Part shown: one piece after another, positions 5,597 through 9,369 of the stretch
How positions within the stretch are numbered: the first letter of the stretch is position 1
How the letters are laid out: every line of letters begins with the position of its first letter
NCBI GenBank assembly: GCA_017883075.1
Contig: JADGOI010000003.1
Coordinates: forward strand, 1-54,114
DNA length: 54,114 nucleotides
From: Acidimicrobiales bacterium
Lineage (GTDB): Bacteria > Actinomycetota > Acidimicrobiia > Acidimicrobiales > RAAP-2
Reading direction: 5' to 3'
The notes under the pieces: generated by a model
Databases searched by the model: none
Told to the model about the DNA's origin: nothing
The model's input: the letters and a program-made list of their open reading frames with translations, nothing else
Program-made: the position numbers and the translations under genes

Positions 5597-5634
5597 CCCT
5601 GACCAGGTACGACTCCCAAGTTCCCAGGTCAGGG
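5597..5634 (-). terminator. Candidate intrinsic terminator overlapping the stop codon of the ThyX-like gene
   Basis: Minus strand: CCCTGACC-T-GG ... CC-T-GGTCAGGG hairpin followed by CCCACTTTTGTCGTTTG. Confidence 0.55.
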
Positions 5635-7287
5635 GCGTGAAGTAATATTGTCGGCAGCCTGCCCGGCGCGCTTCTCTTCGGCCCGCCGCTCTGATTCCAA
5701 CCGCTCCAGGTCCTGGCCGCCGTAGTCGACGTAGGACATGGCCTCGGCCAGGAGCCGGTGCCCGGCCTGTTCAGCGATCAGCCGATGCATCTCCTGGGCT
5801 ACCCAGCGGTAGGAGGGATGGCCTTGCGAGCCCGACCGCAGTTCGGTGAGGTGCATGGCCTCGCGGGCGTTCATCTGCATCGAATAGCGGATCCGGTAGG
5901 CCAATGCCACCGCGTAGGCGGATTCGTGGGGGAATACCGGCGCCAACGCGGCGTAGAGGTCACGGGATCTCTCCAAAGACGCTGCGTAGCGGACCGCCAC
6001 TCCCGCCTCTTCCACTGTCTCGGGAATGTCGTATCCGAGCGACGAACCCAACGGCTGCCAATCGATGGTCAACATCCGATGGCGCTGCAGATCGCGGAAG
6101 GCCCCGTAGTCGCTGACCACATCGAAGCGGTAGTCGGTTCGCTCAAAGGCCCGCCCGGGTCGGTGGCGCCGGTTGGTTCGATCCCCCACATACGAACGCA
6201 GCAATGACCGGCGGTCCTCGACCCCCAGCAGTCCGACCCGACGGATCACCTCTTCTTCCGGTCGGCTGGTGAGTGGCGCACAGATGGCGGCAATCACCTT
6301 CTCCTCGCCATCGGGATCGAAATCGACCAGGGTGACCGAAGGTGCGCCCGAGGGCCCCGCAATCGGATCGTCATCGTCCACGCACAGATCGGGGAAGAAC
6401 GCTTCCACCAGCCGTCCGGTGTCGGTGCGGGTCTTCTCGAGGTAGGCCGACCACGCCACTCCCCGCTCAGCCCGATCCACCCGTTGCAAGAATGACGGAA
6501 TGACCTTGCGGAGCTCATCGAGCATCATGTCCGCGTACCGGCGGGCTTCGGGGAGTGGATGTGACCGCATCCGTAGCAACAGCATCTCGTAGGACTGCCC
6601 GGTCCCGTAGATGCCGACATTGGACAGAGACCCGGCAGGGAGCAGGCCCCTCAGGGAATCGAGGGCCTTGGCCCTCACTGCCTGTCGGTGAACGAAATCC
6701 GAGTCGCCGGTCTGGCGCGGATGCCGCTTGGTCAGCCAGGCCTGGACTTCCACCAGGAGTTCGGCGTAGGTGTCGAACATGCGGTCCATGTCACCCACGT
6801 AACGGGCGCCCAAGGAAGATTCGAGCAGGGCCGGGTCCCGGTAGAACCGGTAGTGCCCGGTGGAGAGTCGGTTGTCGTAGCCGATATATCGGGTGGATTG
6901 CTCGAGGTAGGCCATCAGCCTCCCCCACTCGAGGACCTTGGTGAGGACATTGGAGGCCTGCTCACAGGCCAGGTGTACCCCGCCGAGCTGAGCCACCGAA
7001 TCGTCGCCGTACTCGAAAAACACCTTTTCGTAGAGTTGTTCAGCCCGTTCCACACCTACCGTGGCATCCACCGAGGCATCACCGGAGATGTCCAACTCGC
7101 CCACGAACTCGTCCAGAAACAGCCGGCGAAGGCTTTTGGGGGAGCGCGAATACCGGGCAAACAACGCGCCTTTTACCACCTCGGGCAGATTGACCAGGGC
7201 GAACACCGGTAAGTCGAGGTTGGTGACATACCGGCGGAGAATGTCTTCTTCGTCGGCGCTAAAGGTCTCAACGGCGTAAGGGAACAT
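5629..7287 (-). CDS. Duplicated ThyX-like (FAD-dependent thymidylate synthase superfamily) protein
   Basis: N-half LEWGRLMAYLEQSTRYIGYD and C-half DLQRHRMLTIDWQPLG each resemble part of the ThyX motif RHRxxSxxxxSxR; 552 aa is about twice the length of single-domain ThyX. Confidence 0.8.
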   Translation of the reverse strand: MFPYAVETFSADEEDILRRYVTNLDLPVFALVNLPEVVKGALFARYSRSPKSLRRLFLDEFVGELDISGDASVDATVGVERAEQLYEKVFFEYGDDSVAQLGGVHLACEQASNVLTKVLEWGRLMAYLEQSTRYIGYDNRLSTGHYRFYRDPALLESSLGARYVGDMDRMFDTYAELLVEVQAWLTKRHPRQTGDSDFVHRQAVRAKALDSLRGLLPAGSLSNVGIYGTGQSYEMLLLRMRSHPLPEARRYADMMLDELRKVIPSFLQRVDRAERGVAWSAYLEKTRTDTGRLVEAFFPDLCVDDDDPIAGPSGAPSVTLVDFDPDGEEKVIAAICAPLTSRPEEEVIRRVGLLGVEDRRSLLRSYVGDRTNRRHRPGRAFERTDYRFDVVSDYGAFRDLQRHRMLTIDWQPLGSSLGYDIPETVEEAGVAVRYAASLERSRDLYAALAPVFPHESAYAVALAYRIRYSMQMNAREAMHLTELRSGSQGHPSYRWVAQEMHRLIAEQAGHRLLAEAMSYVDYGGQDLERLESERRAEEKRAGQAADNITSRP

Positions 7288-7299
7288 GCCCCGGTCACA

Positions 7300-9369
7300 T
7301 TAGAACGGCAAGGACCCATCAGGCGCGGACCCCCCGGGAACAGGATCATCGGCGGCCACCACTCCGCGGCGAAGGAGGGCCACCGCCAGGTTGGCGGCCT
7401 CGGCCGTGCCCGGATCCGGTGCCACCTGGGCCAACTGGCGGACCAGATCGATCAGTTGGCGAATGTTCCTCACGAAGTCTCCCGGGGCCACATCGTTGTG
7501 GCGCAGAACCGACGACAACAGCCCTCCCTGGGCCCAGGCGACCACCGAGCGAGCCAGGCCCGGATCTGGGAGCCTGGTCCGCCTGAGCCCGTGGCGGCGC
7601 TCCTCCGCTCTCAGATCGCCCGCCATGGCCTCGAGAGCGCTCAGGCGCTCTGCCACCAGCCGCTGCCGCGGGCCATCCGGGTCCTCTTGGGCCCGCCGAG
7701 CCTCGAAGGTGAGCCCAGAGACCACGCCGGCCAGAAGCGCCGGCTGCAAACCATCGAAGATCCCCGCATTGAGCGCTTCCGATACCAGCAGATCGGATTC
7801 ATGGTAGATACCGGCGAGGACACTCCCGGCGCCGGTAATTCGCCAACCGTCGACATACCCCCGCGACTCCAGTACGGCCAACCGGCGGTCTAGTTGGGCC
7901 GGGAGTGACACCGAGCCCGGAGGAGCCTGCCACTGCCCATAGGAGGCGGCCAGCAGGCTGTGAGCTTCCTCTCTGTCCCAGCGCCTGACCAAGTTGACCG
8001 CCAGGTTGTAGGTGGGATGAAAGGACGAGAGAAGGTCGGGCGGTGGGGCCGAGGCGGTGGCGGCCACCGTGGCGAACGTCGTGGCGTGGGACCAGAGGAT
8101 GAACGCATGACCGACGGTGTCGATGCCTCGTCGCCCGGCCCGCCCGGTCAGCTGTTGGTACTCCCCCGCCGTCAACGCCGACGTGTCGCTGCCCCGGAAC
8201 TTGGCGAACCGCTCCACTACCACCGTGCGGGCCGGCATATTGATTCCGAGGGCCAGGGTTTCGGTGGCGAACACCAGTTTGAGGAGGCCCTCCGAGAAGC
8301 AGTGTTCCACCGCCCGGCGGAAGGCCGGCACCAGGCCGGCGTGGTGAGGCGCGATCCCGGCTTCGAGGGCGGCCGACCACTGCCCATATCCGAGAGTCTG
8401 GAGATCATCGTCGGACAACCGCTCCACCGCCTTCTCGGTGAGCTCGCGTATGCGTCTCTGCTCTCGGGGGTTTGTCAGTCGGAGACCGTCCTGAAGGCAC
8501 TGTCGGGTGGCGTCGTCACAGGCGGCCCGGGAAAAGATGAAGGTGATGGCCGGCAGCATGCCCGCGTCGGACAGATACTCGGCAACCTCGGTGCGCCGTG
8601 GCGTTCGAAAGCGATGTCGGGCATTGCGCTGTCGGCGTTCGTCGAGGCGCAGGCCGTCGGGGTTGGGCTTTCCTTGGCGGAAGAGGGGGAACACGCTGAT
8701 CCGGTCACTGCCCCGCTCAGCCACGGCGTAATGATGTTCGAGCGTGACCGGTCGATGCGTTTCGACCACCACGTGGGTGGTTCCTCGCACCGAGGTGAGC
8801 CACGCCCCGAAGTCCCTCGAGTTGTTGACGGTGGCCGACAGGCTGATGAAGGACACGTCCGGCGGCGTCAGTACCAGAATCTCTTCCCACACCGACCCGC
8901 GATACGGATCTTGGAGGTAGTGAACCTCGTCGAGGACGATGACGGCGAGGTCATCGAGCATCGAAGAGCGGGCGAACAGCATGTTCCGCAGGACTTCCGT
9001 AGTCATGACCACGATCGGAGCCTGCGACTGGTACGACACGTCCCCGGTCAACAGGCCCACCCGGCGCGATCCGTACCGATCGGCCAATTCCGAGAACTTC
9101 TGGTTGGACAGGGCTTTCAGGGGTGTGGTGTAGAACGCCTTGCCCCCGTGGTCCAGCGCCCTGGCCGCGGCGTAGTCGGCGATGATCGTCTTGCCCGATC
9201 CGGTGGGAGCCGACACCAACACCGATTCCCCCCGCTCGATGGCATCCATGGCCTCGTGTTGAAACTCGTCCAGAGGGAACCCGAGACCGGATTCGAAGCG
9301 GGCCCGGAGGCCATGCCCATCGGCTCCGTCGGCACCCCGAAACCGACCTCCGGCCTGCCCGGAAGTCAC
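7300..9369 (-). CDS. helY: Ski2/Mtr4-like DEAD/DEAH RNA helicase (HelY-like)
   Basis: APTGSGKTIIADYA, TTPLKALSNQKFSELADRYG, VIVLDEVHYLQDPYRGSVWEEI, QLTGRAGRRGID; follows tatC as in mycobacteria. Confidence 0.92.
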   Translation of the reverse strand: MTSGQAGGRFRGADGADGHGLRARFESGLGFPLDEFQHEAMDAIERGESVLVSAPTGSGKTIIADYAAARALDHGGKAFYTTPLKALSNQKFSELADRYGSRRVGLLTGDVSYQSQAPIVVMTTEVLRNMLFARSSMLDDLAVIVLDEVHYLQDPYRGSVWEEILVLTPPDVSFISLSATVNNSRDFGAWLTSVRGTTHVVVETHRPVTLEHHYAVAERGSDRISVFPLFRQGKPNPDGLRLDERRQRNARHRFRTPRRTEVAEYLSDAGMLPAITFIFSRAACDDATRQCLQDGLRLTNPREQRRIRELTEKAVERLSDDDLQTLGYGQWSAALEAGIAPHHAGLVPAFRRAVEHCFSEGLLKLVFATETLALGINMPARTVVVERFAKFRGSDTSALTAGEYQQLTGRAGRRGIDTVGHAFILWSHATTFATVAATASAPPPDLLSSFHPTYNLAVNLVRRWDREEAHSLLAASYGQWQAPPGSVSLPAQLDRRLAVLESRGYVDGWRITGAGSVLAGIYHESDLLVSEALNAGIFDGLQPALLAGVVSGLTFEARRAQEDPDGPRQRLVAERLSALEAMAGDLRAEERRHGLRRTRLPDPGLARSVVAWAQGGLLSSVLRHNDVAPGDFVRNIRQLIDLVRQLAQVAPDPGTAEAANLAVALLRRGVVAADDPVPGGSAPDGSLPF

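Follow-up and report, generated by a model that had tools for sequence, protein, structure and literature searches.

Thymidylate synthase is essential. In the flavin-dependent enzyme ThyX, a tetramer, each active site is built from residues of three subunits (PMC6514825). In the enzymes of M. tuberculosis (Mtb) and H. pylori, subunit A supplies the RHR motif and Arg199 (R174 in T. maritima numbering, here Tm), subunit B supplies Ser71 and Arg190, and subunit C supplies the Gln103 backbone, Ser105, Arg107, and the Tyr108 lid, the last three being Tm S88, R90, and Y91 (PMC6514825). In PBCV-1 ThyX, Gln75 and Arg182 come from monomer A, and Ser88 and Gln89 from monomer B (PMC3498832). The substitutions S88A, R90A, and Y91A cripple the reaction of T. 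maritima ThyX (PMC8316439), in which H53 contacts both flavin and folate (PMC11940539). A duplicated ThyX was reported from Chloroflexi by Valas and Bourne in 2009, with the remark that it "has not been characterized" (PMC3224940). This was the only mention of a tandem or duplicated ThyX that we found in the openly licensed literature, where our searches also gave no description of complementary half-sites and nothing on ThyX in Acidimicrobiia. No assay of any tandem-form ThyX was found in the literature searched.

Here we analyzed a tandem ThyX gene from a soil bacterium of the Acidimicrobiales, located in a window of 54,114 nucleotides (contig JADGOI010000003.1), to which all coordinates refer. 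The named close relatives of this genome are metagenome-assembled genomes of Acidimicrobiales, Actinomycetota. Judging from sequence, this bacterium and nearly all of its relatives appear to make dTMP with a double-length ThyX. We consider it about 80% probable that the tandem protein is the flavin-dependent thymidylate synthase of the organism, in which two ThyX folds divide the catalytic residues between them and form composite sites.

Two ThyX folds in one chain

7300..9369, minus strand: helY-type DEAD/DSHCT helicase, the immediate upstream neighbor on the same strand (Pfam DEAD 7.5e-28, DSHCT 2e-32)
5629..7287, minus strand: tandem ThyX gene, 552 aa, with an ATG start 12 nt past the helY stop
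6472..7209, minus strand: N-terminal ThyX-fold half, about residues 27-272 (PF02511 55.4 bits at residues 80-265; hhalign; AlphaFold model)
5722..6342, minus strand: C-terminal ThyX-fold half, about residues 316-522 (PF02511 52.4 bits; hhalign probability 98.2)

The tandem gene ends a run that encodes two proteasome subunits, Pup ligase, TatA, TatC, and helY. Its position directly downstream of helY at the end of the proteasome/Tat cluster, already pointed out in the initial annotation, is borne out by the 12 nt gap and the shared strand. In 63 of the 76 related loci with enough flank, helY likewise precedes the tandem on the same strand. We gave this adjacency no functional weight, because it is lost in its exact form among more distant tandem members. 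An annotation artefact or frameshift fusion was considered and rejected, because in nearly all 60 relatives, as well as in 99 aligned proteins, one open frame covers both halves. Plasmid-borne members currently carry the NCBI name "FAD-dependent thymidylate synthase", a pipeline label that conceals the divided two-half architecture.

The Pfam Thy1 profile (PF02511) matched the protein twice, once per half, and both scores exceed the curated cut-off of 24.8 bits. It was the only family detected in the Pfam scan, in which the ThyA profile (PF00303) had no match. We then aligned each half to a ThyX profile built from 38 single ThyX sequences in T. maritima numbering, using hhalign. The N-half aligned with a probability of 97.5 (E 5e-12) and the C-half with 98.2 (E 6e-14).

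An AlphaFold2 model based on a 99-sequence alignment reached a pLDDT of 89.7 and a pTM of 0.88; this alignment was used instead of one of 27 close relatives, which had given a pLDDT of 63 for the N-half. In the model, strands and helices follow the same order in both halves. The elements E104-112/H113-119/E126-129 of the N-half match E385-393/H394-401/E407-410 of the C-half, and E220-228/H230-241 corresponds to E464-473/H474-484. The best 50 PDB matches of the model in Foldseek were all T. maritima ThyX (probability 1.00), each covering one half; the ThyX fold of the half left unaligned rests on the profile and the secondary structure. A PDB sequence search with the protein or its profile returned nothing significant. 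Both halves are ThyX folds. The protein is thus duplicated and ThyX-like as first described, and the profile search of each half that had been proposed as a check matched in both cases, with neither half departing from the fold.

Division of the catalytic residues between the halves

7147..7149, minus strand: N-half S47, aligned by eye with the folate-loop S30 of Tm ThyX (A-R-x-S)
6886..6921, minus strand: N-half loop R123-L-M-A-Y-L-E129-Q-S131-T-R133-Y134, matching Tm R80...E86, S88, R90, and Y91, the dUMP/flavin-side residues; RHR is degenerate
6637..6651, minus strand: N-half R213-G-L-L-P217, matching Tm R147-I-V-L-P151
6076..6084, minus strand: C-half R402-H403-R404, matching Tm R78-H79-R80 (FAD and dUMP contacts)
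5836..5871, minus strand: C-half N473-A-R475...E482-L-R484, matching Tm N163-A-R165...R174 (FAD Arg and dUMP-activating Arg)

The N-half segment ...EWGRLMAYLEQSTRY aligns with F77-R78-H79-R80...E86-L-S88-G-R90-Y91 of T. maritima ThyX. It keeps R80 (as R123), E86, S88, R90, and Y91 and has lost R78 and H79. The C-half segment QRHRMLTIDWQPLG keeps R78-H79-R80 and has lost S88, R90, and Y91. The initial annotation had read the ThyX signature as divided between the halves and complete in neither. We examined 88 tandem proteins, comprising 70 actinobacterial and 18 distant ones (from phages, Bacillus and Paenibacillus plasmids, and IMG/VR contigs) down to about 24% identity, and found the complete RHRxxSxxxxSxR motif in none of them, anywhere in the chain; no half held a complete canonical site. 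Its description of an N-half that retains E-Q-S-T-R-Y (E129, S131, R133, and Y134 are present) and of a C-half that keeps RHR (R402-R404) without the SxR part likewise agreed with the alignment. The loss of RHR from the N-half needs a correction: it holds for R78 and H79, but the last Arg is kept.

The divided residues were found to be strongly conserved. In the 99-sequence tandem set, the motifs E[QHK]STRY and QRHR were both present in 99/99, as were the loop residues R123, Y127, E129, S131, T132, R133, and Y134. The R and H of the C-half RHR persist in all 88 proteins, including the distant forms. S131, R133, and R213 of the N-half and R402, H403, and R484 of the C-half were each found in 88/88, and Y134 in 87/88. 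The C-half equivalent of R213 (Tm R147) is Tyr or Phe in all 88 (Tyr in this protein). Ser occupies the position of S47 in all 70 actinobacterial tandems and in 17 of the 18 distant ones. The C-half further keeps Tm E58, N163, R165 (R475, 70/70 actinobacterial), and R174, and the latter, the catalytic R484, is invariant in the C-half only. In the N-half, the R174 position is variable, Q75 is lost, and R78 is lost (W or R). In single ThyX, R78, H79, R80, S88, R90, R147, R165, and R174 occur together in one chain (38/38). If six key residues were lost at random from either half, only 2 of 64 patterns would sort this cleanly.

Taken as a whole, the tandem chain carries all catalytic and ligand residues of ThyX with the exception of H53, which is absent from both halves of the actinobacterial form (D95 in the N-half, P377 in the C-half). 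This position is Asp in 70/70 actinobacterial N-halves and His in 13 of the 18 distant ones. An Asp here does not exclude ligand binding, since structures of T. maritima H53D with FAD (4kar) and with FAD and dUMP (4kas) exist, according to their PDB titles.

The split between the halves follows subunit origin in solved ThyX: the C-half corresponds to the subunit A set and the N-half to the subunit C set. The loop residues retained in the N-half are the catalytic ones, as indicated by the crippling effect of S88A, R90A, and Y91A in T. maritima ThyX. The subunit B set (Mtb Ser71/Arg190) is not cleanly sorted: the Ser is in the N-half (S97), whereas actinobacterial forms have Arg165 in the C-half and most phage forms have it in the N-half.

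As the catalytic residues are shared out between them, the halves would have to pair to work. The C-half would act as subunit A, with RHR holding FAD and dUMP and R484 activating the uracil, and the N-half would act as subunit C, with the E-x-S-x-R-Y loop and R213 binding dUMP and covering the reactive carbons. Two chains would form a pseudo-tetramer (pseudo-222) with two working sites at the C-half/N-half interfaces and two degenerate sites devoid of every key residue. Working and degenerate sites being equal in number, about one FAD per chain would be expected. The chemistry would be that of ThyX, in which the methylene group passes from CH2-THF via FADH- to dUMP and THF is released, so that no dihydrofolate reductase (DHFR) would be needed. 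The two folds, the residue split and its universality, the separation of N-half and C-half clades, and the distribution of the gene come directly from computation. We infer the activity, the composite geometry, the dimer-of-tandems, and the FAD stoichiometry, and the reading of one composite plus one dead site, as first suggested for the fused pair, is inferred in the same way. The suggestion that the fused pair could form a composite site fits every sequence test that we ran.

We considered two other arrangements of the same protein. In the first, one half alone would carry out the chemistry by means of substitute residues, and its partner would be purely structural. Each half does contain many invariant residues without a canonical role, such as R373, R374, R379, D393, and D399 in the C-half. 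However, a structural half would not need its catalytic residues, and these are invariant in opposite halves; moreover, no replacement SxR was found in the C-half and no RHR in any N-half. We therefore regard this arrangement as very unlikely. In the second, the catalytic site would be composite, as in our preferred reading, and the degenerate site would bind a nucleotide or folate and regulate the enzyme. Invariant charged positions that are unlike catalytic ThyX, namely D95, D96, Q100, and K117 in the N-half and R370, R373, R374, R379, and D399 in the C-half, speak for such a site, but they may simply be needed by the working site or by the two folds, and we consider regulation of this kind unlikely. 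It is similarly doubtful that complementary loss in an ancient tandem fixed two obligate, unequal half-sites and left the degenerate pocket, which has invariant residues of its own, as a regulatory ligand site. If true, allosteric control would be built into this thymidylate synthase.

Thymidylate supply in the genome, its relatives, and the phylum

A search of the source genome (94% complete) with Pfam profiles, along the lines of the check proposed at the outset, found no ThyA (PF00303) and no second PF02511 match, and a second thyX or a thyA elsewhere in the genome was rejected on this basis. The genome also had no match to DHFR (PF00186) or thymidine kinase (PF00265). Salvage of thymidine through the latter was rejected as well, the kinase being absent here and present in only 8 of 61 relatives. 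The tandem without a separate single ThyX was found in 60 of the 61 relatives, including the complete single-contig genomes G038 and G042. The one relative without it, G022, is an 89% complete draft that has no ThyA either, and the absence is probably a gap. PF00303 matched three relatives weakly and only in part, over about 140 positions. DHFR was found in none of the 61 relatives, as would be anticipated if folate stays in its reduced form during dTMP synthesis (PMC9931769). These results agree with the tandem standing in for ThyA with no need for DHFR.

We extended the search to 297 genomes of the phylum, of which 95 had the tandem, 122 a single ThyX, 5 an unusual single ThyX, and 75 no ThyX, as assigned by reading of profile match counts and scores. 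Among the 75 genomes without ThyX, the PF00303 match was strong in 33 and weak in 37. The weak matches span roughly 75-125 positions in frames of mostly 220-250 aa, some of them with a stop codon at the edge of the match, and these genes are possibly a distant type of ThyA. A ThyA-family match below 1e-20 was found in 2 of the 95 tandem genomes, one in two pieces and one a 74-position fragment. The Fisher p of 6e-41 for exclusion is descriptive only, related genomes being treated as independent. Within the class of the source genome, the only genome without ThyX (G227) has ThyA. Family f71 has members with the tandem, with a single ThyX, and with ThyA, family f65 has members with the tandem and with ThyA, and families f48 and f72 have members with the tandem and with a single ThyX. 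This replacement of one by another within families is the pattern of interchangeable enzymes.

Several unusual genes were observed along the way. G247, a tandem-bearing genome of the same class as the source genome, also has a ThyA gene that is split into two neighboring pieces and looks broken. In family f52, a single thyX (L124; G330:C1, about 3664056-3665600) has an in-frame insert within one 563-aa frame; the insert resembles an intein that includes an HNH-type segment and lies inside the ThyX signature (MRHRVGW / C...VVHN / SYNEESGRY). An unusual ThyX (L126 in G110 and L127 in G098, likely also L128-L130) is about 290-300 aa long and looks circularly permuted, with the signature THRxFSRNSxSSRAIP first and the normally N-terminal part ARCARVSY...HWSPxEH last. 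In G098, the gene lies between dapB-like and dapA-like genes. The genomes with the unusual form do not have the tandem that other members of their families carry.

These distributions bear on whether the protein could be a different FAD/dUMP-binding enzyme, such as another nucleotide or RNA methyltransferase, and not the thymidylate synthase of the cell, an alternative that the initial annotation had raised. Each half is distant from canonical ThyX, with about 20% identity, and the protein scores 41.4 bits against TIGR02170, the equivalog of canonical single-domain ThyX, below the cut-off of 87.9. However, a different enzyme would leave the source genome and the complete genomes G038 and G042 with no other thymidylate synthase, and it is at odds with the way in which the tandem alternates in the phylum with ThyA and with single ThyX, the missing DHFR, and the phage copies, one of which (in phage Tunturi_5) comes after a gene for dCMP deaminase, a source of dUMP. 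We consider this alternative highly improbable. The sole candidate thymidylate synthase of a whole order and of many other actinobacterial families is an enzyme that has seemingly never been assayed.

Phage and plasmid relatives and comparison with known systems

The same two-half layout and residue split were found in Microcystis phage Ma-LMM01 (gp020), Vibrio phage vB_VmeM-Yong (XC31), and Tunturiibacter phage Tunturi_5 (gp50). In the fold search, viral matches over the full length came from Ma-LMM01 and from a protein of 461 aa, a length that the Vibrio phage copy shares. Tandem ThyX proteins of Bacillus and Paenibacillus plasmids share the layout and split their residues as in the actinobacterial form. 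The phage and plasmid tandems are about 24% identical to the actinobacterial protein, and in their N-half His53 and Arg165 are often still present, whereas the actinobacterial N-half has Asp and Gln there. On non-mobilizable Paenibacillus/Bacillus plasmids of about 200-230 kb (L225-L227), the tandem is divergent and has RHN instead of RHR in the C-half. A tandem 45% identical to the source protein adjoins genes for an ATP-binding protein and a HIT-domain protein on NZ_OY725790.1, which is labelled as a plasmid of Parabacteroides distasonis.

We constructed a 68-row tree of the halves, in which the root position is not fixed and some deep branches are very long. All N-halves formed one clade (100/100) and all C-halves another (97/93), each holding actinobacterial, Bacillus-plasmid, and phage members. 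This suggested that the specialization of the halves is ancient. One duplication or fusion, followed by divided specialization before spread among these groups, would be the simplest account.

The duplicated ThyX of Chloroflexi resembles the tandem in its domain duplication and in being the only thymidylate synthase present (PMC3224940). No residue analysis was given there; the source protein has two ThyX domains likewise, and direct homology is likely. A duplicated ThyX and the family name were thus already known, and a divided active site was not found described in the openly licensed literature. The tandem would be a natural case of complementary degeneration, in which a symmetric homotetramer became an asymmetric enzyme with one subunit's share per half. 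Because each role lies on its own domain, the tandem makes it possible to ask directly from which subunit a given ThyX residue acts, and it would also allow a test of half-site behavior in ThyX. With single ThyX (PF02511; T. maritima TM0449, M. tuberculosis), the tandem shares the fold, the catalytic residues of the whole chain, the use instead of ThyA, and the absence of DHFR. Single ThyX is a single domain that forms a homotetramer with four equal sites, whereas the tandem has two diverged domains per chain.
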